Source: Amphibalanus amphitrite
Lineage: Eukaryota; Arthropoda; Thecostraca; Balanomorpha; Balanidae
Assembly: GCF_019059575.1 (NCBI RefSeq)
Contig: NW_024883057.1
Coordinates: 1-64,000, forward strand
Direction: 5' to 3'
DNA length: 64,000 nucleotides
Below are positions 28,001 to 63,114 of this stretch, in pieces. A program made the position numbers and the translations under genes. Position 1 is the first letter of the stretch, and every line of letters begins with the position of its first letter. The notes under the pieces were generated by a model. That model saw nothing but the letters and a program-made list of their open reading frames with translations, searched no databases and was not told the origin of the DNA.

Positions 28001-31000
28001 TGTTTGACGCGTCCTGCTGCTCTTCTGCTTAATGCTGCTAAAACGCCTGGCTATCGCAGTGGTCGGGAGGGGTGGGAGGTGTAGCCAGTGACGTCACGTT
28101 TTGCTGTGCGCTGCCTTTTCCTGCCGTAACTGTAACAAGATGAAGTGGCTGGAGATGGATGTTCGGGCTGACCTGTAGATTGCTAACGGCGCTGCACTTG
28201 ATTTTGCTATCGGCAGCGGCAGGCAGCAGAGACGAGGGACGCACTGCACTCGTGCCAGGTAATACGGGCACTAACATGCGCTAACCAGCCTGCTGGGTGC
28301 ATGGGCAAACCCGCTGACTTCGCAGCCACCAGGGAATTGGCTTTCTTTGTTTAACGCATGTGTAATGCACAGTGTCCCAAAATTTGCCAGTTTGGGTGGG
28401 AAATGACATCCAAATGGAAATAATTTTCCACTCTCACCTCCAATTTTTTAGAGCAATTTTTCACTCCCAATTTCGCCTGTACGAGCATCTGCATGTAATG
28501 TGTACCTTTGGTGGTGGGCTTTTATACTTCCTCCATATTTTCTTCAATCATCTAGTAAAAACAACTCCCAGTTCCCACATCCTGTAACACTCACATGTAA
28601 ATTGATGATCCCTGTTTTTCACCCTTTTTCATGAAACTCGCATATTTCCACTCTCAGCCCGCTTTACTGTGAAGAATTTCCCCCTCTGACATCCAAGCCA
28701 AAATATAATTTTGGGACACTGGAGTGGTAATGCATGTTTCCGCCGCTTCTCGTCGAAAATGTAAACCCGCATGTGTATCGTCTCTTTTCCCTCCCCTCCC
28801 TCTTACCAGCCACGCACACACAAATCGCCCCAACGCCATTGTGTCCCCTGTATCCAGATACCATCGTGTAATCACTACATCGTTGAACGCCCACCTCCGC
28901 CCCTCTCCCCAGCATCACTGACCCCCCCCCCCCCCCCTCTCCGACCCCCAGGCGTTCAAGACACCAACCGGGTGGACGTCTACAACCCCATCTGCAACAC
29001 GTGGCGCACCTGCCCCGGTATGATGGTGGAGCGCAGTCGACTGGGCGTCGGCGTGCTGGACGGCTACCTGTACGCCGTCGGCGGCTCCAACGGACAGGAG
29101 TGTCTCAGCAGCATAGAGAGGTGCGTGTCGCGCAGGGAGAGGGGTGCGCCGCGGGGGAGGGATGGAGACCGGTGAGGTGTTCACGTACGAGAGTGTTTGA
29201 CGAGCATGTTAGTGGATGTGTTGAGGAATGTGTACACTACAGGATGTGAACTGGAAAATAGTGAAGAGCGGGAAAGACACTGGTGTTTGTAAAGGAAAAC
29301 AAACATGGAGGAAGGAAGCGAGTCTTGCCGTGAGCGTTGGTGTGGGGCGCGGCAGGACAGGACTCCTCCGGTGTCCCCGGCTCGGCCTTCCCACGTCGTG
29401 GCGTCACGGGCCACAGGCGGTCCAAGATACCGGCGGGCGGCGGCCCGCGGCCCTATCGGCGCGGCCCAAACCGCATTGGTGGGATGATGGATGGGAGAGA
29501 TGGCTGCGATATATCGATAAACGCCGCGTCAGGCTGCTGTCCCGCTTTCGAAACTCAATTTATTTCGTTATTTTATTTTTCTATCGAGTGTCCGATAAGA
29601 TGTAGTTTTGTTGGAATCCGGTCCTCGTTTTTGCTGGGGCTGCGTGTTTCTGAAGCCTAGGCTGTATATTGAAGGATGCAAAGTTTCTTTGAAATTATTG
29701 TTTTTAGACCCTCCTCCCCATCAGCAAAGGGGCCTTATTGTAACTGATCCATCTCCTCCCCCCTCCCCTTCATGCAGGAACTGTCCACACCGGGAGTGCT
29801 GACCCCCCCCCCCTCCCGAAGATACTGTCCGGACCTGGAGTACTGATTCCCCTCCCATCGGACCTGGAGTACTGACCCCCCCCCCCCTCCCCACAGGTAC
29901 TGTCCGGACCGGGAGTTCTGGGCGCAGCTGAGGCCGATGGCCACGCCACGCACCGGCCTCGGTGTGGCCGTGGTCAACCGTCTGATGTACGCGCTGGGCG
30001 GCTACGACGGCTGCTGTCGGCTGCGCAGCGCCGAGTGCTACCACCCAGAGGAGGACAGCTGGACGCCCATCCCGCCCATGACGACCCCTCGCAGTGGCGT
30101 AGGTGAGTGCTCCCGGCCACCGCCGGACCGCCGCCGGGCCGCTGATGAAGCATGACTGGCGAACGGCGCCACAGAGCCGCAGCGAACGACTGTTGCCAGG
30201 GCAGGGCAGGACGCTGTTACGGGGCTGCTGCGGCGAGATGGTGGGGTTAGTGAAGATTAATGGATTAGGGGGTCAGTGAGATAAGTCAGCTGGTTTTGAC
30301 CCGGGGCAACCGCATGTGGACTTGTTACCGGGGTATGCGTCTTGGACAGAGCTGTATAGACTACTGTGGCGTATAGTCGCAATGCATTTTCCGTAGTTTT
30401 GGGTAAAGTTAGGTCGATTCCTATTGCAAAAAAGGGTAGAATGTGGGATATTTTGGCAATGTAAACATAAAAAAGGCGAACACGAAAGGGTATGTCTCGG
30501 CAGCCACGGCATTGTTTCGGCTCGGGACTGCCTTTGTGTGGGTGGCGGCCGGCGGAGGTATGCCCGCTGAGCTGGCCCGCGCCGGACGGCCCCGGGGCGG
30601 GTTGCCAGTCATCCCCCGGCGGGCCGGCCCCGCAGCTGGGGCTTCCCTGTGCGAGTGCAGAAAACGCTGACTGTGCCCACGTCGGTGGTTGGCTCACCAC
30701 CGTGATCGGGCGCGCTGGCCGACTTTGAACGCCGAGCTGCGCGGCGGCCGCCGGCAGCTCGCCGTGGGAAGGAGGTGCCGCGACACCGCCGCCGAACCGC
30801 CTCGTGACGCCGCAAACTGATGGCGTCATGAACGGCCGAGCTGGCGACACGAGAACGACGATCGGATCTCGGCGGTTAGGCAGGCTGGTGCGACTAATGG
30901 CCGGTGGTTATGGTGTGAGTTTATCGTGACGTTTCGCGGGAACATTTGGTGACGCTCGGTGGCATTCGGTATTTATTCGCTGCTTGACTCTGCCATGACG

Positions 31001-34000
31001 CCGGGACTGAAAACCGCCACCGCTGGAAGACGCCGTGTACTGGGGGACACTGGCGCGTCCTGTGCCGACTGCACGGTGACGTATGGAGATGGTGCGTCAT
31101 TGAAACTGAGGAAAAGTGTGGTCTTGTCCAACATTTGGCAGTGCACCGCCACTAAGATCGACACGCCAGCGCAACGCCTGGTGATTAGCGAACCATGAGT
31201 TATGCGTGTTCTAAGCTGGACTTATGATTACGGGGCATAATTTACCTCTTACAATATTGGTTTTGGCTCATAGCAAACTATTCAACTCGATGTCCGTGAG
31301 AGCCGGCGACAAAAAGCTGAATTCGTTTTAGTTGATACCCGTGAACAGCATGCTGGAAAACGGTCGTTCGCGACATTACGCTGCCGAAGCGCTGGTGTGC
31401 TAGCTCGCAGCCGTTATCAGTTATCACGGAGATTACGTGCAAGGCTAACTAGTGCCTGTTGGGCCGGGGCTGCGCGTCCGGCCTGCAGCCGTTCCGGGAT
31501 CGCCGCGGCGCCGACCGCGGCGCCCGTGCCCGTGACTTGCACATTCGCCCGCCGTGACGGAGGCTGACCGTGTCACGTGACGCGGCGCTGCGATACGTGA
31601 CGACCGGTACGGCGCGGCCACGTGACGACGGCTGACGAGCCAGTGACGTGACGCAGGGACTGGCTGGCGGCGCTGGACGCCGGCATGACGTGACGTGACG
31701 GATGTCCCGTGTGACGGCCCGCTGACGTCTGCGTTACATTCTGCATAACATGCAGCATCCCGCGGCGGAACAGTATACTCTACCGATACGAATACAGAGG
31801 TGTAATGTGTGGGCCTCTCGCGCGCTGTACATGTATAACGGTACTTTATCTGAAGGGCATTGCAAACGGGTCATGCATGTCATCATCACAGTCACTGGAC
31901 CTTCCCAGTGATGCAGCGGCGCGCCCAGCCGTGTCAGCGTCGAGTGGGCGCTCCTCCCCCTCTCGTCAGGGTCGCCGCCCCCGCCCCGCCCTGACCCAGC
32001 CCTGCCGCCCCCGCCCGCAGGTATCGGCGTGATCGACCGATTCATTTACGTGGTGGGCGGCTACGACGGCTCGCAGCAGCTGCGGACGGTGGAGCGGTAC
32101 GACACGGAGGCGCGCACCTGGCGGATGGTGACGCCCCTGCCGTCAGCAAAGTCGGCCCTCAGCGTCACCGTGGACGAGGGCAAACTCTACGCGTTCGGTA
32201 GGTGGCAGATGGGTGGAGGCCGGTGGAGGTGTTACGAGGGGGCGGGAAAATGTAACTGATGCTCGAAATGTTACGGGGCCCGATGCAGAATGATGGCTGT
32301 GAGTTAATCCTGATTACACTGGTAGTGATGTGAAATATCGATATTAAGCTCATACTGTCCTGAAGGAAGAGTGCTGAATGACACTCATCGCACTTACTCT
32401 GACTACATGGTGAGTTGTGTGCATATGTTGCATTGTTTCCAACTGCGGGCTATCGTTCCGGCCCTGAAACACGCGGCGCCCCGCGTGTGACGGGCATTGC
32501 GGCCTTTCAGGCCCGTTAGTGCGACGAGCCCGGTCTGACACCGAAATGTCAGGGGACTAGCGCACAGTGCCGGCCGGGCCCAGGGCCGCAGAATATTCCG
32601 ATAAACTAACGACCCGGCGGCACAGGGCTCCCCAGCAGGGCAATCAGCTGCTGGTGGGCGGGACTCGGCGACGGCGCGGGGGTGGGAAGGGGGGGGGGGG
32701 TCTCGCGGCTGACTCAGTACAGACGCACTGGGAGTGAAGGCTGGCCTATTGCGCACTGAGGTGCCAACATATTGATCTCAATCTCTTCTGGGAGGTTTTA
32801 TAAAGATTGCTGGCCCGACGGCGAGGTGTCAGCGGCAGCGCCGCCACACTCGTCGCCTAAGCTAAGTGGTCACGCGAGCGGCCACTTGGGGCAGTGATCC
32901 GGCCGGTTAGGTCCCCGGCGGGCGCCCACACGGATAAATAGGCCCTGTGTTGGAGCCGGAGCAGAGTTGGAGGTTGGCCGAGCCTGGCCGGGCCACTCCG
33001 GCCGGCCAAACCCGCCCAGTGAGCGTGACTTTCACCTGGCTTGTTGTGACGCCGTAATCGGCGCCTCTCCGCCCTCTGTCCGGCCGCTCTCTCTCCTCTC
33101 TCCTCTGCCCGGCCGGTGGGGGTGGTGTGATGTGCGTGCTGGGGTGGGAGGGGCGCCGCGCCGGCCGGCAGACCGCTGTACTATGGACTGCGGGAGCCGG
33201 CGACCCTGAGTAGCCGGTCCGCCGCGCCCGGCGGCTGTCGGAAGTGGCGTGAGCTGGAACTGGTCACTCCGGCGGTGGATAGCCGGGCTGAGACCTTCAG
33301 AGGAAACGCACCATATTATTGATTGCGGGAGATAAAGTTGGTGGCATAAAAATTGCAGTCATGGCTTCGCACTCTAATTTTCCTCGCCGAATCGTCAATC
33401 ATCTATTGGCATTGTTCTTACTTCTTAAAATTTATTGTTAACACATAAAAATAATGTCGCCTACTGTATTCTATCCAATTGAATGCAGCCTGTGGAGAGT
33501 GGAACTATCGACCTTTGGCAGCGCCGTCGGCAGTGTATTTGTACCGTGTGGCAATGGCCGTGGACGGCCCGACGGCCTCCTCAGTGTCAAGTGTTTGTCA
33601 TTTCTCCGAGCTCGCCTCATTGCAGAGATAAACTACTAGGCAGGTTCATTGCACCGCTATCGGCCGACCTGCTATCCCATACACACTGATAAACTCTCCG
33701 CGCCGCTGTCCCACTCATGGTAACTGCAGCGGGCCCGTCCGTCAGCATGACAAGGGCGGCAGCGGTTTGTTTTTCGTGATTGTGCTGGTCCACTCACTCG
33801 GGTATGATACACCAATGAGTGCTATGGACTTTGACCGTGCTGAGGACGTTGTGGTGGCTGTTTTTTGTGGTGGCGTCTCTCTGACGGGCCCCATCTGTCC
33901 GCAGGCGGGTTCGACGGCACCCAGTTCGTCAGCACGGTGGAAATGTACGACCCGGCCCGAGACGCATGGAGCGCCTGCGCGCCCATGACCACGGCGCGCT

Positions 34001-34122
34001 CGGGCCACGTCTCGGCGGCGTCTGTGCGGCCTTGTTTCGCGCACACGGACCCCTCGTTACTGGACCGGCACCGTCGGCCCGACTGTGACCAGCTGCAGCA
34101 GCAGCCGCAGCCGCCGCGGTGA
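12743..34122 (+). CDS. Keap1: Keap1, BTB-BACK-Kelch Cul3 adaptor (9 exons)
   Basis: Redox and electrophile sensor. In known orthologues it bridges the Nrf2/CncC activator to Cullin-3 for ubiquitylation and releases it under oxidative stress. Exons 12743-13015, 13237-13401, 14457-14606, 14726-15005, 26385-26618, 28952-29120, 29897-30102, 32021-32197 and 33905-34122 join in frame to 623 aa (human KEAP1 is 624). BTB is about 42-160, BACK about 163-285, six Kelch blades about 308-600. Using a constant 18-residue offset, the human Nrf2-contact residues Y334, S363, R380, N382, R415, R483, S508, Y525, Q530, S555, F577 and S602 are all kept (Y316, S345, R362, N364, R397, R465, S490, Y507, Q512, S537, F559, S584); Y572 is F554. 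A leucine-rich segment (LVRLLKEMSL) matches the human nuclear export signal. Sensor Cys273 and Cys297 correspond to C256 and C280; Cys151 and Cys288 positions are T134 and Q271. The human comparison is from memory. Confidence 0.95.
13237..13401 (+). CDS. Keap1: Keap1 exon 2 (aa 92-146), BTB
   Basis: Acceptor TTTTCAG|GCG, donor CAG|GTGGGC, both phase 0. Encodes AMFTSGLRE through AATMFQ. The Cys151-equivalent position is Thr134, with a cysteine two residues on (C136). Confidence 0.92.
13402..14456. other. Keap1 intron 2
   Basis: Contains a MITE at 13,448-13,747. The remainder shows nothing recognisable apart from a TGACGTCA at 13,993. Confidence 0.7.
13448..13747 (+). mobile_element. MITE, AGTGTCCYAAAATT family, copy A
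   Basis: TIRs AGTGTCCTAAAATT and AATTTTGGGACACT. Both termini match, in inverted orientation, the 28,371-28,720 copy in Keap1 intron 5, including the subterminal 'TGTCAGAGGG' and 'GTGGGAAATGACAT' blocks. The TIR resembles Tc1/mariner-type MITEs; no clear TSD. Confidence 0.75.
14457..14606 (+). CDS. Keap1: Keap1 exon 3 (aa 147-196), BTB end/BACK start
   Basis: Acceptor CTCCAG|ATG, donor CAG|GTAGGG, phase 0. Encodes the QLEPSNAIGIATFAEQ block typical of Keap1-like BTB-BACK proteins. Confidence 0.93.
14726..15005 (+). CDS. Keap1: Keap1 exon 4 (aa 197-290), BACK/IVR
   Basis: Acceptor TTTCAG|ATC; donor AAAG|GTGGGT, phase 1. Encodes the BACK helices and the intervening region. C256 aligns with human Cys273, Q271 with Cys288 and C280 with Cys297. 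Intron 4 (11.4 kb) follows. Confidence 0.94.
15674..15905. repeat. GC-rich minisatellite, ~31-bp unit
   Basis: About eight copies of a unit of 31-32 bp containing TGTATCCTGTACCGGGGGCC, alternating with CGGACGC or TAGCCGC spacers. Open frames across it on both strands are repeat artefacts. Confidence 0.8.
18959..21635. mobile_element. hAT-like non-autonomous element with 8-bp TSD
   Basis: TIRs CAGGGGCGTCGCC and GGCGACGCCCCTG are flanked by the perfect 8-bp direct repeat GTTGCTTG (18,951-18,958 and 21,636-21,643). The 'CAGGGG' end and 8-bp duplication are characteristic of hAT transposons. Length is 2,677 bp; no transposase frame. A second element is nested at about 20,792-21,410. G/C runs of more than 10 lie just inside the right end. 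Confidence 0.85.
20792..21410. mobile_element. Nested G-run TIR element, copy 1
   Basis: Long diverged inverted repeats (about 190 bp per arm). The outer ends read TAGCCCGGCGGCCGCTGGG and, inverted on the right, CTAGCCCACGAGCCGCTGGG, followed inward by a run of 12-16 G and a short 'GCATA...GTTGCCCCC' block. Paired TGACGTCA sites lie in each arm (20,988/20,999 and 21,219/21,230). A related element is at 52,350-53,276. Confidence 0.65.
21916..22570 (-). mobile_element. 5'-truncated LINE 3' fragment
   Basis: On the minus strand, frames at 22,570-22,361 and 22,364-22,113 resemble the C-terminal end of jockey/CR1-type reverse transcriptase proteins. Signs are a degraded 'LARLRIGHTRLTHSY'-like stretch, then a Cys-containing segment ending in KHVLLDCPES. 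The two frames imply a frameshift. A short 3' UTR leads to a (CTAT)n tail at about 21,915-21,930, typical of a LINE 3' end. Confidence 0.55.
22943..23010. repeat. 22-bp tandem repeat
   Basis: Three near-identical units of CGAGGGACCGTCGTGACCCC plus two bases, then a diverged fourth. Confidence 0.8.
26385..26618 (+). CDS. Keap1: Keap1 exon 5 (aa 290-368), Kelch 1
   Basis: Acceptor CCCCAG|AG; donor ACAG|GTGGGC, phase 1. Encodes EMSLHKPT, the export-signal end, then VAGGYFR and VVGGRKNN. These carry pocket residues Y316, S345, R362 and N364. Confidence 0.94.
26619..28951. other. Keap1 intron 5
   Basis: Contains MITE copy B (28,371-28,720), a C-run at about 27,783-27,798 and a C-run at about 28,922-28,937 that forms the pyrimidine tract of the acceptor. 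TGACGTCA occurs at about 27,703 and 28,089. No coding sequence is supported. Confidence 0.65.
28371..28720 (-). mobile_element. MITE, AGTGTCCCAAAATT family, copy B
   Basis: TIRs AGTGTCCCAAAATT and AATTTTGGGACACT, about 350 bp, inverted relative to copy A in intron 2. Subterminal blocks match copy A at both ends. Confidence 0.78.
28952..29120 (+). CDS. Keap1: Keap1 exon 6 (aa 368-424), Kelch 2
   Basis: Acceptor CCCCAG|GCG, donor GAGAG|GTGCGT (phase 2). Encodes VDVYNP, then ERSRLGVGV with pocket residue R397 and AVGGSNG. Confidence 0.93.
29121..29896. other. Keap1 intron 6 with decoy acceptor copies
   Basis: The 3' part (about 29,768-29,896) holds three imperfect copies of the acceptor plus the first ~20 bases of exon 7, separated by C-runs. 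The rest is unremarkable. Confidence 0.75.
29897..30102 (+). CDS. Keap1: Keap1 exon 7 (aa 424-493), Kelch 3
   Basis: Acceptor CCACAG|GTACTG, donor GTAG|GTGAGT (phase 1). Encodes YCPDREFW, NRLMYALGGYDG with R465, and PRSGVG with S490. Confidence 0.93.
30103..32020. other. Keap1 intron 7
   Basis: GC-rich. A cluster of CACGTGAC/TGACGTGACG motifs lies at about 31,570-31,700 (CACGTGA at 31,574, ACGTGACGAC near 31,599 and 31,618, tandem GTGACG near 31,644 and 31,685). TGACGCGGC at 31,578 fits the antioxidant-response core TGACnnnGC. A regulatory role is conjecture. No exon is supported. Confidence 0.5.
32021..32197 (+). CDS. Keap1: Keap1 exon 8 (aa 493-552), Kelch 4-5
   Basis: Acceptor CCGCAG|GTATCG, donor TTCG|GTAGGT (phase 1). 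Encodes VVGGYDGSQQ (Y507, Q512) and SAKSAL (S537). Confidence 0.93.
32198..33904. other. Keap1 intron 8
   Basis: GC-rich, with an 11-12 G run near 32,690. I see no gene or defined repeat. Confidence 0.6.
33905..34122 (+). CDS. Keap1: Keap1 last exon (aa 552-623), Kelch 6
   Basis: Acceptor CCGCAG|GCGGG; TGA at 34120-34122. Encodes GFDGTQF (F554, F559) and ARSG (S584), the closing blade, then a Gln/Pro-rich tail (QLQQQPQPP). Confidence 0.92.
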
Positions 34123-37061
34123 CCCCGGCCCGCCGCCGACCCGAGCGAGCCGCGCGGCCGGCCGGGCTCCGCGCGCCATCTGTGATACGGGCCGACTGAG
34201 GGCGCTGGCTGCCCTGTACGGGACGGACGGGATGTGACGTGTGAGTGGTTGGTGCCGTGAGTGCGGGTCGCTGGTGTGGAGCGCGGCCGCTGGTCGGTGG
34301 CTGGTGATATACGGGTGTACCTGAGCAGTGGCGGCGCGGCCTGTGCAATAGGTGGCGGCTGGCCGCACGGAGAGGAGGGACGGACCGGCCCTGGCGGCCA
34401 CCGTTCTGCGGATCGCTCGGAGCTCAGAGTGGTGGCGGTGAGACCTGCACACGAGTCGCACCGCCGCGCCGTGGCGGCGCCGGGAAGCTGAGGTGATCTG
34501 GTCGGGGCTATCTCGCGAGACCAGAGTGGCCGCTGCCAAAGCTTGTTCAGCTGTTTTCGGGGTGCAGTGCGGCACCGTGCGGGGCGAAGGTATTTCAGCA
34601 GTGTCTAGGCCGATTTTCGATCGTGATTGGTGGTGAATTATGAGATGTTTATAGTTGTTTCATCCACTGGCGGGTAGCCCGGTCTACCCTGCCGTCGTGT
34701 GTGATGGCCGCCGGGCGGCGCACTGTCTCGGTGCTTTCTTTACCTAGTTGGAGAGCGGTACCCTCACCTGCCGCGGGTAGACGCTGTGCAAACGGCGCGG
34801 ATATTCAGAATCAAACGTTACCAGCGTGCCGCCACGGCCGCCGGGCTGTGTCCTGTTCTGTGCCAAATCGGGTGGCACCGGCTGGTGGGGCCGCGCTGAT
34901 CAGCTGTGACGCCGCGGGTCGGCGGTGGACGGGGTCGGACCAATCTCTGGAGTTAGCGTCGGTAAGGTGGCGCAGGCGTGTGCTGTGTGGGCGATATTCG
35001 GCCATGTGACTTGTGTGTCTGCGTGTGAACATTGTGTATGACCGTAATATGTACGCACTTTTATTATAAGAGGGTCAGTGTTATTTCTACACGTTATGTC
35101 ATGACAACTACCGTTTTTGTTATGGACGCCGGACAGTCAGCAATAGGATATGGATGTGATCGATGTGACTAGAGGACACGGGAGCAGGACATGTGGATAG
35201 TTAAAACGTCACAAGCTCACAACTGCTCTTGCCGAAAGGTTATTCGCGATATGGCGCCATTTAGACTTGCAGTAGTATCCGCACTGAAGATTTGCGATTA
35301 ATACTGGCATCCTAAAAGTGGGCATGCCTATTGTCTAGGTCTCCACCTCAATAGAAGCGGCTCCGGCCAACCAACACCCGAGGGCCGTTCATGACGTTCC
35401 GCTGCTGCTGCTCTGTTGCCAACCGATACTAAAACGTTTTACAAATCAAAATAAACTAGGGGGCACGGAGGCAATGACCCGCAGAGGGCGTGCTGACGTC
35501 ATTGGCATCAACCTCGACATCGGCAGCACAGCACAGTGACGGCACGGAAAGCCATGATCTCACCTGACGATTGACAGCTGTTAACCGAGCTATCCGCGTG
35601 TAAAGAGACAGTACCGCATGAGCAATGCTCAGGAAATTCGAGCTGTCTCATCCAAGTTCGACTCTCAGCAAAGCCGTGCGAGTTGCGGGTAATGACTAAA
35701 CTAAATGACAAGTAAACGAGATGCTCCCTAGAAAAAGCAACTAATAATGGTGATGTGTGTTCGCTCGTGGAAACATCCAAACATCCTTGAGCAGGACTAG
35801 AAGTGACTAGAGCAGATATGGGCATGTCGAGCGTCCTGCCTTTGTACTCGAGTTAGGAAAACTAGCCAACATGAAAACAATCTTAACATCTGGACGGCAG
35901 TCTCTCCAGTCATTACATTTGGTCATGATAGGGACGGAATGTATCGTAGCAGCACCACAAGACCACACACACACAGCTGTTGTACGTCGGCGCCATCTGT
36001 GAGATCGGTACCACGCTCTCCGCTGAGATCAACATCTCACACCAATTACTCAACCATGATACACTGCATCGATCATCACTGAAGATGGTGTCAGCGTCTG
36101 TGGAGCTGTCATATTTACCTCTCCATGAATCTTACCATATCCACCACCACCGGCCTCCTTCCCACGGCCATTCGGCAGTCTCAGCACGGTGGGAGTACCC
36201 CGCAGTGTTAGAGGTCGGGTCACTCCAGCGGAGAGTCGAGCTGCCTCCGCCGCCGGCGGCTGCTGGCCTGGAAAACAACCCTACTGTCAGAGACCGGCTG
36301 CTGGCCTGGGAAACAACCCTACTGTCAGAGACCTGCCGCCGGCGGCTGCTGGCCTGGGAAACAACCCTACTGTCAGAGACCTGCCGCCGGCGGCTGCTGG
36401 CCTGGGAAACAACCCTACTGTCAGAGACCGGCTGCTGGCCTGGGAAACAACCCTACTGTCAGAGACCGGCTGCTGGCCTGGGAAATAACTCTACTGTCAG
36501 AGACCTCACCTCGGCCATCATGGGGCGGGGCAGGTGGGCTAACCGGGAAAATACAGATAACTCGGAACTGTGAGTGGAACTCTGCGAGAAAGCATGGGCT
36601 TGTTAAATGCCCAACTTTGGGTAAGGAGGCACTTGGCAGCACTGCCAGCACGCGGCGAACGGGTGAGGGTCTTTGGCACGATTCAGACCGAGTTACGTCA
36701 GTCGTCCTGCGGTCGTGGGCAGGCGCTCTATCGGCCCCCAATATGATGCAACGCTTGCCGAATTTCCATAGCTGAGTCCGTCCCATATCGATAACCGTGC
36801 CTAATAAATGGCATTATCACAGTCACCAATGACACTGCCACGGGCCGGCAGAAGAGGCCCCATTCAGCGCTCAGGGAGGCAGAGAGTCATTGCCCGACCC
36901 AGATCGGCAGCGATAAAACATGCAAGAACGACCAACGTCAATAAACGCTGACCCTACACGATGACACGGCACAATATCCGCACAAACACCCTGATGGTCG
37001 ATCGTTTCACCATCGTTTTTGTTACTACGCCGCCTCAACTGCCCCTCCCCCCCTCTCCCCC
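34123..37061. other. Convergent 3' intergenic region
   Basis: Lies between the stop codons of Keap1 (+) and the DUF4614-like gene (-). An AATAAA at 35,450-35,455 could serve Keap1, giving a 3'UTR of about 1.3 kb. It also contains the 36,250-36,505 minisatellite. A 197-codon open frame around the minisatellite is a repeat artefact. Confidence 0.5.
36250..36505. repeat. 38/48-bp minisatellite
   Basis: Six copies of GGCTGCTGGCCTGGGAAACA plus ACCCTACTGTCAGAGACC. Copies differ by presence of a 10-bp TGCCGCCGGC insert, so spacing alternates between about 38 and 48 bp. Confidence 0.85.
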
Positions 37062-37234
37062 TCAAATCACCTTCAGATCCTCCCTGTGAGTGTAGACCTG
37101 GCGCTGGGTCTCTCGCAGCGTGCGACGGTACATCTCGTGCAGATGCTTCTGCGTGGCGAGGAAGTGGCGCGTCAGGACCACCTGCTGCGTCAGGATGGCC
37201 GCCAGCGCGGCGTCCTCGTCGGCGTCAACAAAAA
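37062..37234 (-). CDS. DUF4614-like gene, last visible exon
   Basis: Minus strand: acceptor CCGCCAG|TTTTTGTTG at 37234, phase 1 continuing. It encodes VFVDADEDAALAAILTQQ through THREDLK. It either reads on two codons to TGA at 37064-37062 (ending KVI) or splices at a GTGATT donor at 37070 to an unseen exon. Human C19orf44 continues beyond this point. Confidence 0.6.
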
Positions 37235-39412: not shown

Positions 39413-40069
39413 CTAGGAACAAACAGTAACATCACTGAAGAGTTTAACAAATGAGATCTGAATCTTACAAACTAACAGTTTGACAATTGACACTTGACAG
39501 CAGTTGTGCAATTTCAAAAATAACTTAGTCACAAAACGAGCAAAGTTGAGAAAGGCAGCAAATATAAGCAGCCCTACACTCCATTTTAATGCACAAGTTG
39601 TGGAATGTTTATCTAAAGTAAAAGTAAATTATCATTATATGTGTAATGTGACCAATAAATTGTAAAATTCTGACTTAGGTTACACCTTACCTGCACACTT
39701 GTCATGTCTCCACTTTTAAAATCAAAATGCTCCTTTCAAGGCATAACAAAAACTTCAAAATTTCACCATCTTAGGTCCAGATAGGTTGAAAATATTTCAC
39801 TTTTGCATTGGCTCATCGCTACTAAACCCCCAAGGCCGCTAAACCCCTAAAAGAATCACCCCACACCATTTATAGGTATCTTGCCCACACCCAAATTCAC
39901 TTCAATGTATTTTGTATCGCTTGCGCAATATACGAGCCCAAAATCATCAAGGTTTTTATCTTCAGTCTGAAGATAAAGTTAGAGCAACAAAGCAGAAGAA
40001 AGCCACCAAAATCATAATTCTGTGGAATTGAATAAATTTGTATGTGCATAAATGTTGAATTATTATCGC
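39413..40069. other. Intron or flank between DUF4614-like exon and LINE
   Basis: AT-rich, no coding signal. Lies just upstream, in the minus sense, of the 39412 acceptor. Confidence 0.55.
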
Positions 40070-40162
40070 TATTACCTTACCTTACCTTACACTATCGGGA
40101 ATTTTGAAAGGCAACTCGCCTGTAGGTCCCGCTCTCGTCGAGCTCGTGACTGGTGGTCATCT

Positions 40163-43036
40163 CTAGTCGTGAGTAGGAGTCAGGTACATCAGATTGGCCC
40201 AATGCTTGTCAAGTCTGGATTTGAAGGCATTGAGGGATGGGGCCTGGACAACTGTTGCAGGGAGGGAGTTCCAGTCGTTGAGCGCTCGAATAGTGAATAG
40301 TTGTCTTCTGGCTCGTGACTTGGCATGTGGTTTGTACAGCTTCCAGGGATGGCCACGGTTGGACCTCGTGGACGCAGGCTTGACAAACTTGTCCGAGTCG
40401 ATATCGATCTCGTTATGCAGCAGCTGGTACATTCCAATCATGTCACCACGGCGTCTTCGGTGGAGCAGTGAAGGAAGCTTCAGGCATTTCAGTCTCTCAG
40501 TATATGGTTTGCTCCTGATGCCGGACACTAATCGAGTAGCGCGCCGCTGGACTCGCTCCACAAGCTTGATGTCTGCACGATTGAACGGGCCCCATATGAG
40601 GTTGCCGTATTCAAGGTGGGGCCTGACAAATGCCTTGAACAAAATCGGCAGAGTGATCTCGTCCAGATTCGAGAATGACCTCTGGATCAGAGACAGAATC
40701 TGTGAAGCCTTTGATACAGCCGAGGAAGCCTGCCTCCTGAACTTCAGCTCGGGATCGATGATGACACCCAGATCTCTCTCAGCTGAGGTGGAGGCGAGGC
40801 AGACACCGTTCATAGAGTAGGAGTGACCAGAGTTCTTGGCCCCGACGTTCAAGGACGCACACTTGCTCTGGTTGAACGCAAGCTGCCACTTCTTGGACCA
40901 GGTGGTGAGAGCATCAATGTCGAGCTGGAGCAGGGATGCATCACTGGGAGTATCAATGCTGCGGTACAACTTCGTGTCATCAGCAAAAATCTTGATGCAG
41001 GACCTCACCGCGTCGGGGATGTCGTTGATATATACAAGGAACAGAAGGGGCCCTAGTACAGAACCCTGTGGCACCCCGCTGGTGACAGGAGACCAGGTGG
41101 ATTGACAACCTTGCACGACGACTCGTTGTTGCCGATTGGATAGAAATGACCTTATCCACTCAAGGAGGTGTCCAGTCACACCGTATGCTCTCAGTTTGAC
41201 GAGTAGGCGTTCGTGAGGGACGGAATCGAAAGCTTTTCTGAAGTCCAGATATATGACGTCGACCGGGCTCCCGTCTTCAATCGCACGGCTCCAGTCATCC
41301 AAGACTTCCAGTAGCTGAGTCGTGCAGGATCGGTGTGGGCGAAAACCATGCTGGTGACGCGACAACAGTCCATTCGAGGTGAGGTATGCCATCAATTGGT
41401 CCCTTATCAGCGACTCCATGACCTTGCACGTCACTGCAGTTAGGCTAATTGGACGATAGTTCTCTGGTCGTCTTCTGTCTCCTTTTTTGAAGATGGGCAC
41501 AACTGTGGCAAGTGTCCAGTCGTGGGGAACACATCCTTCATCTAATGACTTGCGGTAGATGGAAGCGAGAGGAGCACTGATGGAGTTGGCCGACTCAGAT
41601 AGAACTCTTGGGTGGATGTCGTCGGGGCCAGGAGAGCTCGTGGTCTTCAGGGATGCCAGCTTCTGTCGGACCATTTCTGGAGAGATGGACACATCGCTGA
41701 TGTTGAGTGAGGTTTGCTGCCGGGCGAGATCGGGAACTTCCTGTTCCTCAGTAGTGAAGACACTGGAGAAGTAGTCATTCAAGATGTCGGCTTTTGCTGA
41801 GTCGTCACTGACTGACCTGCCTTCGGGGTCAAGAATATCTCCGATGCCCGTCCTCACTTTCAGGCGTGAATTCGTGTACTGCCAGAAGGCCTTTGGATTG
41901 GTTTTGATCTTGGCCGCCAGTTGGAGCTCAAAGTTTCTTCGCAAGCTTCTGGTGAGGCTCCTGAGCTCGTTTCGGCAGCGTGCAAATCTGGCATGATCAA
42001 TGGGGTCTTTGGTTGCCGTGTACTGGCGCCACAGGGTTACTTTCTTCTTTTTGAGCTGGTTGGCCTTCCCGTTGATGTATAGATTCTTCTTCCTCTGTCC
42101 TGCCCTAGCAGTGGGAACAGAGGCCTTGACAGCCCCAGCAACTGAGTGTTTGAAGAAGTTGTAGCTTTGGTCCACATTCAACTGGGCCAACACACCCCAG
42201 TTAACATCGCTCAGCAGTGCATTCAGGGTGGGAAAGTTGGCACGCCTGAAATCTAGCTTCGGGATGTCAGATTTCCCTGGGCCAGCATAACAATTCAGGT
42301 CAAACTTCAGCAGAACGTGATCGCTGTTTCCTAGACCAGGCATGTAGTTTAAATTGGAGACCAGTCCTGCTTCATTGGTGAGAATCAAGTCCAGCACGTT
42401 ACAGGCTTCACCTTGTCTATATCTGGTTGGTTTGGAGACATGCTGCTCGAGGAGGCAGTCGTTGAAAGTTTGCACCAGTAAGTGAGAGTAATGGTTGTCA
42501 GGAGCGGTTGAGAAGCCACTATCCCAGTCGACATCAGGCACATTAAAGTCCCCAGCAATAAGCAGATGGGATGGATTCAGTGAACACACCTGTTCAAGAA
42601 GGTCTGCAAGCTCATGCATGCTTTGGAGATTGTTTCCTGAAGGACTTCGGTAGATGCACCCAACAAGCAAGATGTCAGAGTTCATCAGTTCAAACCTCAC
42701 CCACAATTGCTCCTCGAAGTTGTGGCCACTAAATTCAACTTGAACAGCCTGTAGATTGTTTCTCACATAGATACAAACACCCCTTTTTCCACTAGAGCCG
42801 AGATTGGGTTGGTCAGGCTCAAAGTTACAATGTAGAGTGAAGCCAGGGATAGACAAGATGGCTGGAGAAATAGGATGAACTTGTGCTTTCGGGATGACCT
42901 CGGTGAGCAAGATTACATCAGGTTCGTTACCAGCGATGAGCATGCAAAGGTCGTCCTTCTTGTTAGGGAACTGGTCAGTGTTCGTATAAATTACTTTCAG
43001 CCCCGTTTTGCCATGTTCCTTGAGGTGGGAGGCTAG
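40163..43036 (-). CDS. LINE ORF2: AP endonuclease plus reverse transcriptase
   Basis: 957 codons, TAG at 40165-40163. The N-terminal endonuclease core starts about 12 codons after the ORF1 stop (LKVIYTNTDQF, with the conserved Asn), then LLTEV, GCIYRSP, LIAGDFN, LDLILTN and SDH. RT motifs are LDFRKAFDSVPH (A), GVPQGSVLGPLLF (B) and FADDTKL (C). The first ATG (42943) lies inside the endonuclease core, downstream of the YTN motif. The frame is open back to the ORF1 TGA and is the same frame as ORF1, so independent initiation would lose a conserved part. Role: nicks target DNA and copies the element RNA by target-primed reverse transcription. Confidence 0.92.
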   Translation of the reverse strand, partial: LASHLKEHGKTGLKVIYTNTDQFPNKKDDLCMLIAGNEPDVILLTEVIPKAQVHPISPAILSIPGFTLHCNFEPDQPNLGSSGKRGVCIYVRNNLQAVQVEFSGHNFEEQLWVRFELMNSDILLVGCIYRSPSGNNLQSMHELADLLEQVCSLNPSHLLIAGDFNVPDVDWDSGFSTAPDNHYSHLLVQTFNDCLLEQHVSKPTRYRQGEACNVLDLILTNEAGLVSNLNYMPGLGNSDHVLLKFDLNCYAGPGKSDIPKLDFRRANFPTLNALLSDVNWGVLAQLNVDQSYNFFKHSVAGAVKASVPTARAGQRKKNLYINGKANQLKKKKVTLWRQYTATKDPIDHARFARCRNELRSLTRSLRRNFELQLAAKIKTNPKAFWQYTNSRLKVRTGIGDILDPEGRSVSDDSAKADILNDYFSSVFTTEEQEVPDLARQQTSLNISDVSISPEMVRQKLASLKTTSSPGPDDIHPRVLSESANSISAPLASIYRKSLDEGCVPHDWTLATVVPIFKKGDRRRPENYRPISLTAVTCKVMESLIRDQLMAYLTSNGLLSRHQHGFRPHRSCTTQLLEVLDDWSRAIEDGSPVDVIYLDFRKAFDSVPHERLLVKLRAYGVTGHLLEWIRSFLSNRQQRVVVQGCQSTWSPVTSGVPQGSVLGPLLFLVYINDIPDAVRSCIKIFADDTKLYRSIDTPSDASLLQLDIDALTTWSKKWQLAFNQSKCASLNVGAKNSGHSYSMNGVCLASTSAERDLGVIIDPELKFRRQASSAVSKASQILSLIQRSFSNLDEITLPILFKAFVRPHLEYGNLIWGPFNRADIKLVERVQRRATRLVSGIRSKPYTERLKCLKLPSLLHRRRRGDMIGMYQLLHNEIDIDSDKFVKPASTRSNRGHPWKLYKPHAKSRARRQLFTIRALNDWNSLPATVVQAPSLNAFKSRLDKHWANLMYLTPTHD

Positions 43037-44605
43037 TCATTTTTGACCGCCTCTCTGGTGAGTGCTGGTTGGTCTAGCACTCGGAGTTGGATTGAGAGCA
43101 TCGGCTGAGACTGAAGCAGACTCCTGGTTGGCTCCAGATTCCTGTACAGGGAGAGTTCCTTCCTGGCCAACAACAGTGCGTGGCCCTGGAGCAGGAGCTT
43201 GGGGTGGCACTGAGTTGAGATTTGGTTGCGGAGCAGATGAACGAGCTGTTCCCTCGGGAGCAGATGCGCGAGCTGCTCCATCATCTCTCTGGATAATTCT
43301 GCCTCTTCTGATAGTGAGGTTTGTTTCGCCAGCTCTTCTACGGGCAGCAAGTTCATCTCTTAGCTTCTTTCCCAGTTCCCGTTCTTTCTGGGTCATGTCT
43401 GGGTTGATAAAGATGTCGCTGAACTCATCCGAGCTCCTTAGTTGGGGGGACATCTTAAGTATGTCATACTTGGAGGACAAGCTGTCAAGTGTGACTATAA
43501 GAAGTCGTGGTCTATCAGGGAGTTTCTTTCCAACTCGGAATGTTTTCACAGGAGTGACAGACAACTTGAAAGCATTCTTTATCATGGATGTGAACAGGGC
43601 AGCATCTCCCTCAGACCTTTCCTTAAAAGAGTCACCCAGGGACTCCTTCAGATTGTGAACAACCACGTTTAACTTCCGCTTCTCTTTGTCGAGGAAGTCA
43701 TCAAATACAGATGAGATATCCTGGACAGTTTTCCCAGATGCACCTGTGGTCTGAGCTTCACCCTTACCATTGTTGGCTGGAAGGGATGCCACCCTTTCTG
43801 ACACCTTTTGGGCAACTTCTTCACATGTACCTTTCAAAATTTCTGCATATGTTTTTTTCTCTTCACTGTAGGTTTTTAGGCTTTGTTCTAGCTGTTTACT
43901 TTGCTCCATGTGAGTTTTTTCCTGGTCCTTGAGGAAGTTCTCGACAAACTCCATGTGCTTACGTACATCCGTGTCAAGGTTGTGAACTTTTGTTTCGAGA
44001 CAGTCTACCTTCTTGGACTCATCCTTCTTTTTGATGTTGTACTTGCATTCGGCACAGAGCCATGAGAGAATCTTGTACTTGTCCAGAGCTCGGATTGCTG
44101 GGACTTCGATTCCCTGACATGTATCGTGGAACCACCCGGAGCAGCAGTCACATTGGACCCCCTCCTGGCTATCAAGAACTGGATTCCCACAATCCATGTT
44201 TAGGGGCCCACCTTTGCAGATTGTTGATTCACTCCCAGTGTCACTAGATGTTCTAGAACAGCCTCCCCAGAGTCGGTAAGCGTTCTCATCGAGCTTCTGA
44301 ATGTTTCGTTTGCACTTACTAGCAGCTGAAAGGGTTTTCTCACCTTTTTCTGGGGTTAGATCCTCATCTCCGCTCCTCTGCTGTTCCACACCACCGTCTT
44401 TCGACTCAGATACCGCTTTCTTTCCACTTTTCTTACCGTCGAAACTCGTTGAGACACTTCTCGACGAACCTGGCGCGGGCTCCGGCGGGGCAGCGTGGGG
44501 GCGGCCATCTTCCCCTACAGCCGTCGTAGTTGGAACAGCTGATTGTCCGTTTGAACCGAGTCGTCTGCCCCGACGTTTCAAAATTGGAGACCGTTCCAGT
44601 GTCAT
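43037..44605 (-). CDS. LINE ORF1: PHD-type zinc finger, coiled coil
   Basis: ATG at 44605 (GTG three bases upstream is not used), stop TGA 43039-43037. About 522 aa. The N-terminal third is basic. A Cys/His cluster (CDCCSGWFHDTC ... WLCAEC) has PHD-finger spacing, as in ORF1 of several CR1-clade elements. It is followed by a Lys/Glu-rich coiled coil and an RRM-like region (RKLNVVVHNL ... RPRLLIVTLDS), then a Pro/Ala/Ser tail. Expected role: RNA-binding chaperone of the RNP. The stop is immediately followed by CTAG (see findings). Confidence 0.85.
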   Translation of the reverse strand: MTLERSPILKRRGRRLGSNGQSAVPTTTAVGEDGRPHAAPPEPAPGSSRSVSTSFDGKKSGKKAVSESKDGGVEQQRSGDEDLTPEKGEKTLSAASKCKRNIQKLDENAYRLWGGCSRTSSDTGSESTICKGGPLNMDCGNPVLDSQEGVQCDCCSGWFHDTCQGIEVPAIRALDKYKILSWLCAECKYNIKKKDESKKVDCLETKVHNLDTDVRKHMEFVENFLKDQEKTHMEQSKQLEQSLKTYSEEKKTYAEILKGTCEEVAQKVSERVASLPANNGKGEAQTTGASGKTVQDISSVFDDFLDKEKRKLNVVVHNLKESLGDSFKERSEGDAALFTSMIKNAFKLSVTPVKTFRVGKKLPDRPRLLIVTLDSLSSKYDILKMSPQLRSSDEFSDIFINPDMTQKERELGKKLRDELAARRRAGETNLTIRRGRIIQRDDGAARASAPEGTARSSAPQPNLNSVPPQAPAPGPRTVVGQEGTLPVQESGANQESASVSADALNPTPSARPTSTHQRGGQK

Positions 44606-44830
44606 CACACTTGTTTTCGTTGATTTGGCGGAAGGTTTAGGACCAAAAAGTAAGGATTAACAGGATATATTTCATAAAGGTCTTTGGTATCGCAGTTAAT
44701 GTTCAAGGTCACTCGGTGTTGACAGGCTAGGAGCGCAGCGGCAGGTGATCCGGGGCGAGAGCTCGACGAGAAGCGTCCGACCCCGCCGAAAGCGCGAGCA
44801 AGACTCCAAGACTGTTAGGGCTATTACACA

Positions 44831-45800
44831 AAAGAAATGATGTAAAATCGAAATATATCTATTTATTTAAATCTTGTAATTTAACCTAGGTTCCCTCAGG
44901 TTCCTTCAATTTGAGGGATTTCCCTTTAAAATTTGATGACGTCATTACTTTTAAATAAAAAAAAATATTTACAGTTCAATCTTATTTTTCACAATATTTT
45001 ACAAAATTTGAAGTAAAATGTAAGCATATTTCAATTTTATAAATAAATATGAAGCAAGATGAGATATTTTACAAAACAGCTGCGCCAGAAACTTTATTGA
45101 CGTCATTATAATCAGAAATGAGCTATTTATTTTGATTTTAGTATCTGCCATTAGATCGTCTTTATTGCGCTATATCTGTATACTCATGTAAAACGAAGCT
45201 GCCATTTGCCATTCGATAATTAAGAATTTGGAGGCGAAGCAGGTTGAGATATGTTTTGACAATATTTTTTTCAGCTTTGTGGCGGAGTTATAAGCAACTC
45301 ACGAATCTCAGCATCCTTATCTTTGTAGCGGTGCTTGGAAGAATTTTGTGAAGTTCGGTGCTCCAAGTCCAAGGCCATTTCGGGCTGCAGAACTTGAACT
45401 CAAACTGATCGTCAAATTTGGTGTGCAGAACAAAAGGGACAACTCAAAGGTTTGTGCGATGCTTTCTGTTAGGGCTAGGCTACCAACTGGATTTAGGAAA
45501 GGTTAATTTCAATAAAGACTCGAGTCATTACTCATTCCCACAGGCCACAGCCCATTCTGCAATGCCAATGCATGGCCATTTATACGAGATCTCGTCATGA
45601 TTTTTCTCGCTTTATTTCTCTTCAGTGATTGCTTGTTCTAATGGTGCAGAATCCAGATTTGGCGGTAGATATTTACTTTTGGACTGACACACTTTTAACG
45701 GTAAATTTTACACATTCTTCTATTGTTAACATCCTAAATCCAGATAGGTATGCTAATAACATGTCATCAAAATGTTAAAGAAACATAACCAAGCCTTACC
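44831..45800. other. AT-rich intergenic sequence
   Basis: No coding sequence supported. TGACGTCA occurs at about 44,938 and 45,099. Confidence 0.5.
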
Positions 45801-46280: not shown

Positions 46281-46366
46281 CGGCCGCCCGCACCGGGGCT
46301 TGAACCGGGCTGTCACTTCCGGCTAAGCGTCGAATTCCGGTGCTATAATCCACTCGGCCACGGAGA
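46281..46366 (-). other. tRNA-like sequence (tRNA-derived SINE head or pseudo-tRNA)
   Basis: On the minus strand, an A-box-like TGGCCGAGTGG (46,360-46,350) and a B-box-like GGTTCAAGCCC (46,306-46,296) sit at tRNA-like spacing, with serine-tRNA-type A-box wording. I could not fold a proper 7-nt anticodon loop, so a functional tRNA is unlikely. Confidence 0.45.
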
Positions 46367-46386
46367 GGACATGAATAGATTGCAAG

Positions 46387-46496
46387 CAATGGTAAGTCAA
46401 ATATTTTTAGGTGAGTGGTTGTGCATCAGCCTTCAGGCCTTCAGCCTGAAACCAGCTACACAACAATTTAACCTAAAAATATTTGACTTACCATTG
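46387..46496. repeat. Fold-back element with 26-bp perfect arms
   Basis: Left arm 46,387-46,412 (starting CAATGGTAAGTCAAAT) is the exact reverse complement of 46,471-46,496. The 58-bp loop carries a further hairpin TTCAGGC/GCCTGAA. It begins shortly after the tRNA-like sequence, so the two could be one element. Confidence 0.85.
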
Positions 46497-49425
46497 TCTG
46501 TAATCTCCCCTAAGGTGTCAGTATTGCCTTTGGTACTGCACTGCTTCGCCACGAGGAATTTTATGTTACTCTACATATTGCATTAGTGCTTTTAAATTTG
46601 TTTGTGCCATGAATAGATATCTCATATCAGATATGAAATCAGGTCAAAGGATATCATGTGATTTGCTTATTACTTGGGGACTGCACCAAAAGTAAATGGG
46701 TTACCAGTCCTAAAGTGAATAAATGGCTAAATATTTACCATTGAAACTGCTGGTGCACAGGCTAATTATTGAAACTTGTCCCCCAATCAGTTCAGAAGTT
46801 GAAGCTGTCCATGGAAAGAGGCCCCTTTCAAAGGGCCTGTGGCTTCCTTACTTTCACTTTTAAGGCTAATGCTAATCACAAATACATGCATTTGCCCCCC
46901 TCCCCCAAGGTTCAGGGTGGTATGGAACAGGAAAGGGATGGTGCAGCCCAACCCAGGTTTCCACACTGTTGGCAGCCATTGGCAAGTTGCACTGTTGTGG
47001 GGCACGGGCGGACGCGGTAGGGTGAGAGGAATGAGCATGGCTGATGGGAGGGATTCAGGATGTGGACTAACCCATTGTGCAGGGCCAATGGGATGGCTTG
47101 AACTTGAAGACCACAGCTCCACAGCTTCAAGCAGTCATATAATACACTGCAAATGATTTTCAAGCTGCAGTCAAATAATATACTGTATACGGTTTACCGA
47201 ACATGATGTACCGGACCGTTCGACGCAGCTATATAACAAGTTGCGTCGAAAAAAAATTGAGGTTTTTGCACTATGCAGCGTTGGTAAACAAGATGCGCTC
47301 AGTTCATGTAAAGGTTTGGTGTTGTCGCTCGGTGGTAGGGCGAGATGCGCATGGCTGATGATAGGCCTGGAGGAACGCTACTTGGCCGCGGCTCAAGTAG
47401 TCAAATCATGGTGCTGAAAATGCATGCGATGAGCCCACATTTTGCTATTTATATTTTTATTTTTGTAAGTGGGGTCTTACTTAACAGGTTTTCAAGCCAT
47501 TTAGCTAAATGGCTGTGTCGACACCATTGGAGTAACCATGGTATGTCGTACCTACCATAAAAGCCCTGGATGAATCGCTAGGGGCAGGCCGCAGGGACGG
47601 ATATGGTTGTTGTATTGGCGTGACATGCTTTTTGTTCGAATTCGGATCGGAATGCGCCGGTCTAGTTACTAAAGACCACGTGAGTGGTTGTCTTGAGATT
47701 AGAAGGCGGTGCAATGGCCCAACATATGGGGGGGCGCACCTTGTCCCGTTGTGATCGGCCGCTCAGCCGACAGGATAGCTGTGACGAGGCGCAGTGTAAA
47801 TATTTGATGTGGCTCGCTGCACGAGCGACCTTGCGGTGCCCTTGTGACTCGCCATGCGACAGGAAATACCCCACGCCTCGGCTCTCGTGCTCGGAAACTG
47901 GACAGAATCGGCCAGTGTCGTGATGCGTGACGGTGTCGATCGCAGTGAGCATCTTCAGCTCACCAGTGTCGAGATCCGTGTCGCGGGCGGCAATGGCTGG
48001 CTACTTCTCAGGAAGCCGGCGCTCATGGAACCACCGATACCCAATATCTCACCACCAGCTGGAAGAGTCAGTTGCCTGCATTGCATCACGACTCACGAGT
48101 AATAAAATCATGCACTTTTATAATATTATTGTTTGAGTTCGTAGGCAGCTTACACAACATTATGGTGCCCACATGCAGTATCAAAGTGGCAGCTAGTGCT
48201 GGCGTGCTTACGATAGAACCAAGCACGCACACATTAATTGGAACAAAAGAGTGACTTCATATGCCATTACACTCGTCTCTAGTGTAGTATCCAGACTCGT
48301 GATTTCCTGTTTCAGCCTTACAATGTGTAGTTTTCAGTCTGCGTGTGTGGTTGCTTCTCTCGCAGTGGAATATTTTTAATTTGTTTTATTCTCGTAAATG
48401 TCGTTCCCAGACGGATGCGTTCCCCCAGGTGCGTTATTTTCAGGCACGCGGTGCGCGGTTTTCAGGCTGGGCCATGCTGGAGGACATTTTCGTCAGCGTC
48501 CGCTCGCTCCCCTCGCAGTGGTCGGAGGCGTGGAGCTCCTGGTGGTGGGCGGCGCTCCGTTCCGCCGGCGCCAGCTGTAAGACCAGCTGCCAGCCGCTGC
48601 CGCACTTTTGTCGGCCTATTTTCGGCGCTGTCGCTGTTTTGGTGTTATGCGTTCACGAGCACGCCGAGGCTTCGTTATATTCAGCTTAAATATCAAGTTT
48701 TTGGATTATTAGATGCAAATATATTATTTCCCGCTTGTCTGTTTTTCAGTTTCAGAGGGTTGTTGGCATCCACTTGTCCACATGGACATTGTTGAGCGAT
48801 TTGTTCCTGATGCATGCATCTTATGCATGATCTGATTACGAGCTGTCAGCACGCAGAGCAGTTATCTACAAGCACAAAATATGCACGAGTGTTGCACGGA
48901 CTATGACAACATCCACAGCGTGCTGTCTTTATCTCATTTGGTCCCTGTGAAACCCTCCATTCCCATTCTCATCTAGCAACAGAGTGGTGTTTTGGCCGGT
49001 CGCCAGCCGTCGTGTTTAGCGCCCTTCTGCTGACTGGGCAATGGGCGCCGTTCAATGTCCGAGCACGCACCGGCTGAGCTCGGCTGCATTGCACTTGGTC
49101 GGCCGGCCCTCTGCCAACTCAGTCTCCGCCGCGACTGTCGGACGGAGGTCCGCAGTTCGTGTGCACCCCAAGGATGGTCCCTTATTGCTCACTTATTTTT
49201 ATTTTGAAAAAAAAAAACATGTTCAACGGCATAGCAGGATCAGTAATCGTCGATTGGTTCTCCCATGGTTTTGGTTATCTGCTGACAAGAGAAAGATGCA
49301 GCATGTGAAATAAAAATGTTTTCTAGGCATTGAGCGCTGGCAGATGTTTCGCTGTGCTGATTCTGCGCGGCCGTCGTCAATGTGTGTTCAATGTGTGTTA
49401 TATTTTCCCTCTGTGCTTTACGTTG
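46497..49425. other. Intergenic region upstream of LIMK
   Basis: No exon could be proven. GC/CpG-rich patches at about 48,400-48,670 and 49,000-49,170 are candidates for the LIMK promoter or a 5'UTR exon; the second contains TCAGTC at 49,119, an arthropod initiator-like motif. These are guesses. Since LIMK exon 1 begins at a splice acceptor, an upstream exon must exist. Confidence 0.4.
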
Positions 49426-49429
49426 TCTG

Positions 49430-49719
49430 GGCCCGCAGGCGGTATCCTGTGCCCCGTGTCCCTCCGTGTATGACCAGTGTCTGTGTCTCGGCCCGCAGGC
49501 GGTATGCTGTGCCGGTGTCTGTCTGCCCCGTGTCCCCCCGTGTCTGACGATTGCCCCGGCCCGCAGGCGGTCTGCTGTGCCGGTGTCTGTCTGCCCCGTG
49601 TCCCCCCGTGTCTGACCGTTGTTTCGGCCCGCAGGCGGCATGCTCTGCTCGGGCGCTGGGGCTGCTCTGTCTGTCCCGTGTCCCCCCGTATCTGACGATT
49701 GCCCCGGCCCGTAGGCGGC

Positions 49720-49740
<21 letters not shown>
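49430..49740 (+). repeat. Tandem copies of LIMK exon 1 acceptor
   Basis: Five copies of GGCCCGCAGGCGG, starting at 49,430, 49,490, 49,558, 49,626 and 49,706 (units 60, 68, 68 and 80 bp). Each reproduces the acceptor and the first bases of exon 1; the last is the presumed functional one (CCCGTAG|GCGGCATG). The fourth copy also carries the ATG. Confidence 0.85.

Positions 49741-63114
<13,374 letters not shown>

Follow-up and report, generated by a model that had tools for sequence, protein, structure and literature searches.

The window, a 64,000-nucleotide stretch of the genome of the barnacle Amphibalanus amphitrite, carries two genes that an earlier note had named as Keap1 and LIMK, and both names held on closer analysis (Table 1). 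The LIMK model is open through all 13 coding exons and served as our frame of reference. Its product has kinase and LIM matches in Pfam together with a weak PDZ match, and exon 9 aligns to LIMK1 (PDB 3s95) without gaps over all 86 residues, reaching a donor that is itself arrayed. The kelch exons of Keap1 match kelch repeats, with Keap1 chains ranking below designed kelch proteins among the matches. Between the two genes lies a non-LTR retrotransposon, the 3' side of which gave 40 scored matches in the assembly when a 301-base query was used. Four minisatellites in the window have no recognised exon border.

Table 1 Genes, junction arrays and other repeats in the window. The score is that of the junction test, followed by the number of shuffles out of 100 that matched it.
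Feature	Position	Strand	Content	Score (shuffles)
Keap1 gene, predicted exons	13237..34030	+	kelch matches; 3' end approximate	
Keap1 5' exons, predicted	13237-15025	+	BTB/BACK judged by eye	
Keap1 kelch exons	start at 26386, 28953, 29897, 32021, 33905	+		
Keap1 acceptor array	29752..29926	+	C-rich tract + acceptor + ~25 exon bases; real acceptor 29896/29897 preceded by 2 copies and a truncated third (read by eye)	21 (0)
LIMK gene	49715..63113	+	13 coding exons	
LIMK exon 1 acceptor array	49403..49752	+	4 copies of acceptor + ~20 exon bases, upstream of real acceptor 49714/49715	26 (0)
LIMK exon 3 acceptor array	51620..52143	+	CTGAC tract + acceptor + ~30 exon bases, in 7 units that end with the real exon at 52095	30 (0)
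LIMK exon 3 donor	52209..52325	+	real donor after 52225 and 2 degenerate copies	21 (0)
LIMK exon 4 acceptor	53816..53992	+	degenerate copies upstream of real acceptor 54000/54001	11 (2)
LIMK exon 5 acceptor array	54297..54665	+	four GGATGAGTCT units, one of them the real exon (acceptor 54624/54625), plus an older degenerate unit	25 (0)
LIMK exon 9 donor array	56604..56770	+	58-bp units, three with the real donor (after 56638) counted	28 (0)
LIMK exon 13 acceptor	62606..62853	+	two degenerate copies upstream of acceptor 62816/62817	14 (0)
Non-LTR retrotransposon	40163-44656	-	ORF of 957 aa encoding endonuclease and reverse transcriptase, next to one of 539 aa whose PHD-finger match narrowly misses the cut-off	
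Element near LIMK exon 3	52349-52893		93% match to C507, inverted and elsewhere	
Insertion in LIMK exon 10-11 intron	57176-58538		~1.36 kb without a C507 counterpart; inverted flanking copies ending in AACTTTTGAGACACCCTGTA	
Minisatellites without recognised exon border	309-1382, 15669-15904, 22942-23014, 36257-36505		units of 21, 31, 21 and 38 bp	

Copies of splice junctions in LIMK and Keap1

The window was chosen because copies of splice junctions had been noticed there. Each junction was represented by a 30-mer (20 exon and 10 intron bases), which was compared with as much as 400 bp of the neighbouring intron and with 100 dinucleotide shuffles. Eight junctions had been named as copied in the earlier note, and seven of these had scores that no shuffle matched; the exon 4 acceptor of LIMK was the weakest (Table 1). 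TRF arrays in the window were found at 29830, 49489, 51701-52125, 53919 and 56606. In a placement test restricted to these two genes, six of seven arrays (merged by hand) touched a junction, compared with 2.4 expected (P = 0.008). The further claim that exon interiors are unrepeated was borne out by the absence of copies from all 56 exon middles when these were compared with their flanking introns.

The copies differed in how well they resembled working sites. At the LIMK exon 1 acceptor, all four copies had an AG and all four fell within the score range of real acceptors. Four copies were recognised at the exon 3 acceptor under the splice-scoring criterion, all with an AG, and none reached the real-acceptor cut-off, at which the real exon 3 acceptor itself sits. 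Under this stricter criterion no copies were returned at the exon 3 donor or the exon 4 acceptor.

Arrays in other genes

The sample outside the window comprised twelve 10-kb stretches, chosen arbitrarily, and the remainder of the contig. Coding-potential scans of the sampled stretches identified a DYRK-like kinase gene (PF00069), RPL9 (PF00347), ELP5 (PF10483), an unnamed gene (one exon, weak PDCD10_N match) and one GALNT-like exon (PF00535). Finer gene names were assigned by eye, and for RPL9 additionally by its best PDB match, 4v6w (119 bits, compared with 97 for the next), which we take to be a Drosophila entry.

The longest array was associated with ELP5, whose third listed exon ends inside the first of 23 CAGGTGAG units (a count that includes the real donor), mostly 57 bp apart; the last acceptor of this gene had one copy in the junction test. 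In the DYRK-like gene, the real donor is followed by an array of five copies, and an acceptor copy is also present; in the unnamed gene a donor is doubled. In total, 5/33 junctions in the five non-window genes passed the test, spread over three of the five. Junction copies were thus present in five of the seven genes examined and at both kinds of border, namely at acceptors of LIMK (exons 1, 3, 5 and 13), Keap1, the DYRK-like gene and ELP5, and at donors of LIMK (exons 3 and 9), the DYRK-like gene, ELP5 and the unnamed gene. Their units comprise the splice site with roughly 15-50 exon bases and are roughly 25-95 bp long, and the copies lie in the intron, to which the search was confined.

In the last intron of RPL9 (L017:4023-4577), ~62-bp units with acceptor-like ends (TCTCTGTACAG) adjoin the real acceptor. 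The exon part at this acceptor is barely, or not clearly, repeated (score 11, reached by 10/100 shuffles), and the array is possibly a decayed member of the class of repeats known from lancelets as mirages (see Discussion).

Junctions compared with other positions

Across 64 junctions in six genes, 12 scored beyond all shuffles and 14 were reached by at most one shuffle. The total count covers 73 junctions in seven genes, two of which had been picked for the feature, and 12 of these junctions had copies at a score of at least 14. Included in the 73 are seven additional Keap1 junctions, among which donor 15025 is probably misplaced and 14605 is one base off; none of the seven had copies.

Tandem repeats are abundant in this genome, with 89 clusters that make up 10.6% of the 198 kb scanned, and 6.7% of 4594 positions outside genes had a local copy at an equal score threshold. 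Relative to these positions, the excess at the 73 junctions was 2.2- to 2.5-fold (P = 0.003-0.007), and the non-window genes alone gave P = 0.09. Introns beside arrayed junctions are richer in GC (0.57 versus 0.50). However, GC content is insufficient alone to account for the excess, as 12 of 66 junctions had copies compared with a GC-matched expectation of 4.86 (P = 0.003).

Inside introns, the frequency of copies depended on whether the junction arrays themselves were counted. With these included, 186/1670 positions (34/354 in the other count) had copies, which is not far below the junction rate. The matches are mostly the junction arrays, and 15 of the 16 deep-intron ones in the 354-position count fall in the ELP5 intron. 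Outside junction arrays, just 19/1450 intron positions had copies. Counted by array, over six gene spans including those of the window, 11 of 14 touched a junction compared with 4.6 expected (P = 0.001). The three off junctions were two pieces in LIMK, close to exons 4 and 13, together with a coding repeat, an EHRRS-rich segment within an exon of the unnamed gene (L023:6731-6834) and the sole exonic array of the 14.

Measured against intron-only repeats, in a comparison of repeat families over 29.1 kb of introns, the excess at junctions was larger than that over positions outside genes. Families that include a junction numbered 12 at a score of at least 14 and nine at a score of at least 20, compared with ten and two intron-only families, the latter merged by eye from 18 pieces and with the junction arrays left out by hand-set limits. 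The expected junction share is ~0.12 for 60-bp units. With units of 45-75 bp and persistence at junctions up to three-fold longer, P ranged from 2e-8 to 0.04. Of the non-window families, 5/7 include a junction at the lower threshold (P = 0.0002-0.07) and 3/4 at the higher (P = 0.004-0.14).

We therefore regard clustering on junctions as supported, with the caveat that two genes had been picked for it and that the independent sample is small. The earlier note had called this clustering hard to explain as random minisatellite growth. That claim stands for the placement of arrays and for the family counts (nine versus two), and is weaker in relation to positions outside genes, where the excess is modest and the non-window genes fall short of significance. 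An ordinary minisatellite indifferent to gene structure is rejected when all genes are used; the non-window genes alone gave the family values above (P = 0.0002-0.14) and P = 0.09. A chance origin, in which some arrays of a minisatellite-rich genome land on junctions and their exon copies are easily noticed, draws on the high rate of copies outside genes, the extent of the repeat clusters, that last P value and the selection of two of the seven genes for the feature. It is at odds with the scarcity of copies in introns outside junction arrays, with the number of arrays on junctions and with a family share far above ~0.12, and we consider it unlikely.

A second LIMK haplotype

A DNA search identified a contig, C507, as a second LIMK haplotype, collinear with 50.2-61.3 kb of the window save for inserted elements. 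The longest three blocks are 85, 88 and 95% identical between the two, and shorter ones fall to ~72-82%. The ten exons compared are 96-100% identical and gapless with unchanged AG/GT sites, and from this exon identity we infer that C507 is probably allelic rather than a recent paralogue. Very high allelic diversity has been reported for the barnacle Balanus improvisus (PMC8270832), which would fit the divergence of the LIMK haplotypes.

Two further differences between the haplotypes lie outside the junction arrays. The segment in the exon 10-11 intron that has no counterpart in C507 is a polymorphic transposon-like insertion, and that near exon 3 is an element that was inverted or inserted separately (Table 1).

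In this comparison, which covers LIMK only, the arrays differed in copy number and also in the variant that had been amplified. Read by eye, the exon 3 acceptor has seven units in the window and five in C507, and the exon 9 donor three and seven, respectively, one of the seven being partial. Copies of the exon 3 donor and of the exon 4 and exon 5 acceptors were common to both haplotypes, the exon 3 donor scoring in both and the acceptor-like copies at exon 4 being visible in both. In one array, that of the exon 3 acceptor, copies near the exon bear the exon base and acceptor of their own haplotype, which indicates that the real junction participates in the turnover. One duplication was captured as a difference between haplotypes: the exon 5 donor of C507 has a 31-bp duplication (GCAG/GTGGGAG...) that is absent from the window haplotype. 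GCAG occurs at the start of this unit and again immediately past it, also in the window haplotype.

In the assembly the two haplotypes appear to be kept apart as separate contigs, a situation prone to false duplications, and the earlier note had itself raised the possibility that the copies are artefacts. Errors of duplication or polishing at the edges of exons would, however, have to produce copies diverged by many substitutions, older copies common to both haplotypes (at the exon 3 donor and the acceptors of exons 4 and 5), and a second contig with the same LIMK exons, other copy numbers and a 31-bp donor duplication of its own. An artefact is thus extremely unlikely.

The same comparison bears on whether spare splice sites are selected as a cushion against splice-site mutation in a very polymorphic species. 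The high divergence of the LIMK haplotypes and the diversity reported for B. improvisus supply the premise of this idea. Nevertheless, the real site was never replaced by a spare, ten exons having identical sites in both haplotypes. The expected advantage of such redundancy is only about the mutation rate, and we hold this explanation to be very unlikely.

Strength and decay of the copied sites

In 10 of the 12 arrays examined, 49 copies were scored; the AG or GT was preserved in 47 of them, and 41 lie in the score range of real sites. Elsewhere in introns this range was reached by 57/1341 AG and 85/1798 GT dinucleotides (4-5%). ELP5 contributes 25 of the 49 copies; without it, 23/24 keep AG or GT and 17/24 are in the real-site range. 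Some decoys at LIMK exons 1 and 5 and at ELP5 outscore the real site, so strength alone would not select the right one at LIMK exon 1 or ELP5. In five arrays read by eye (ELP5, DYRK-like, LIMK exons 3 and 9, Keap1), use of a decoy would lead to an in-frame stop.

Similarity to the real junction tended to drop with distance from the exon, with rho = -0.63 at LIMK exon 1 and -0.89 at LIMK exon 3 (four copies each), -0.71 at the DYRK-like donor (five copies) and -0.19 at ELP5 (25 copies). Such a trend would be as expected if selection holds the exon-adjacent unit and the other copies decay outward. Identity across copies was 0.80-1.00 in the splice core and 0.65-1.00 in the exon part (11 of 13 arrays yielding copies). 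This conservation of the core is not a decisive sign of decoy use, as the core excess is only slight and similarity-based copy finding is biased towards intact cores.

That bias also bears on selected decoy or poison splicing, in which copies would be kept for nonsense-mediated decay or as a splicing buffer. The preservation of AG and GT, the strength of the copies relative to other intronic dinucleotides, the decoys that outscore real sites and the predicted stops are what such a role would call for. In addition to the favouring of intact cores by the search, the identity of cores exceeds that of the exon part only by a little, and both the number and the presence of copies vary between the LIMK haplotypes. 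Selected decoys therefore seem improbable as an explanation of the arrays.

Discussion

Repeats of this type have been described in lancelets, where minisatellite-like repeats at exon-intron borders, termed mirages, are reported from Adh3, troponin C, BflGb6, BflGb9 and PGBD5 (PMC3087553, PMC3902484). According to these reports, the globin gene BflGb6 has six and three units on its two haplotypes, length at Adh3 is somatically unstable, and splicing is left undisturbed, with regularly spliced cDNA (PMC3087553, PMC3902484). Four features of mirages were found here: a unit that spans the border, occurrence at acceptors and donors, and, for LIMK only, copy number that varies between haplotypes and homogenisation within a haplotype, the last in one array. 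As in lancelets, units contain the splice site and many copies retain intact signals. Unlike the lancelet cases, the arrays occur in another phylum, several of them lie in one gene, three of five further genes taken from arbitrary stretches also have them, they were counted against intron and exon interiors, and one duplication was caught as a haplotype difference. Regular splicing in the lancelet is reported from cDNA, whereas the barnacle arrays were studied as genomic DNA; for undisturbed splicing here, the identical sites of ten LIMK exons in the two haplotypes give indirect support only. The junction arrays match the known mirage kind, and the new element is a first estimate of their frequency. 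Among the literature matches listed, drawn from the open literature and few subscription journals and represented by titles and the starts of abstracts, no description of junction repeats in an arthropod was found; tandem repeats in a prawn lectin are the topic of PMC7536079.

In human genes that lie in segmental duplications, copy-number-variable minisatellites with units of ~30 bp have also been reported at exon-intron borders (PMC2812944). Those genes are recent paralogues and their repeats are able to alter the transcript, whereas the barnacle genes are conserved and their exon structure is unchanged where compared. A further relative is the model of intron gain through tandem duplication of an AGGT segment, which likewise involves duplication across AG/GT-like borders. 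Steps towards intron gain have been proposed for lancelet mirages (PMC3087553), and the units here bear borders of this form. However, no new exon or intron was found among the ten LIMK exons compared, all of which have an unchanged frame and the same sites in the two haplotypes, and we give this route hardly any weight.

The reading we favour, with a probability of about 0.68, is that the arrays are mirage-type minisatellites, that is, tolerated tandem duplications straddling exon-intron borders, which are born through microhomology and turn over as minisatellites do. Short matches would allow slippage or template switching, from which a unit would arise; such a match flanking a unit was seen once, as GCAG at the exon 5 donor of LIMK in C507. 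The duplication would be tolerated because the exon-adjacent site is intact and is still chosen, and the array would then expand, contract and decay away from the exon. These readings are not fully exclusive, and the probabilities assigned to the alternatives add up, together with that of the favoured one, to slightly more than one.

The preference for junctions calls for something further. At 51 array-free junctions, exact words across the junction that reappeared within 100 bp had a mean maximum length of 4.22, compared with 4.15 at 792 intron sites (P = 0.40). Recurring splice motifs or shared short words were therefore discarded as the cause of the preference, and the microhomology step fails to explain it. 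Among the causes listed in the earlier note, tolerated duplication fits best, and a special role for short shared words is unsupported. In simulations, constraint on the exon copy raised detection only 1.2- to 1.6-fold over six settings, and longer persistence through such constraint was rejected as the sole cause. Given this small gain and the lack of a short-word excess, the preference seems to require some additional bias towards junctions, most likely a mutational one.

A stronger version of the favoured reading would have splice junctions act as genome-wide hotspots of tandem duplication in this lineage, with about one junction in six arrayed and the arrays born there through a process linked to transcription or splicing. 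Introns would then grow from their ends, and the spliceosome would pick among up to about two dozen near-identical sites. We put this forward as a tentative possibility.

Copying of junctions may be common in the genes of A. amphitrite, and a feature known from a few lancelet genes is now found in a distant animal. In genomes of this kind, gene prediction and the removal of haplotigs may err at exon edges. If the pattern is genome-wide, it would offer a natural series of competing near-identical sites (three versus seven, five versus seven and up to 23 units) for the study of spliceosome choice, and a direct view of intron lengthening and of the birth and loss of junction copies.
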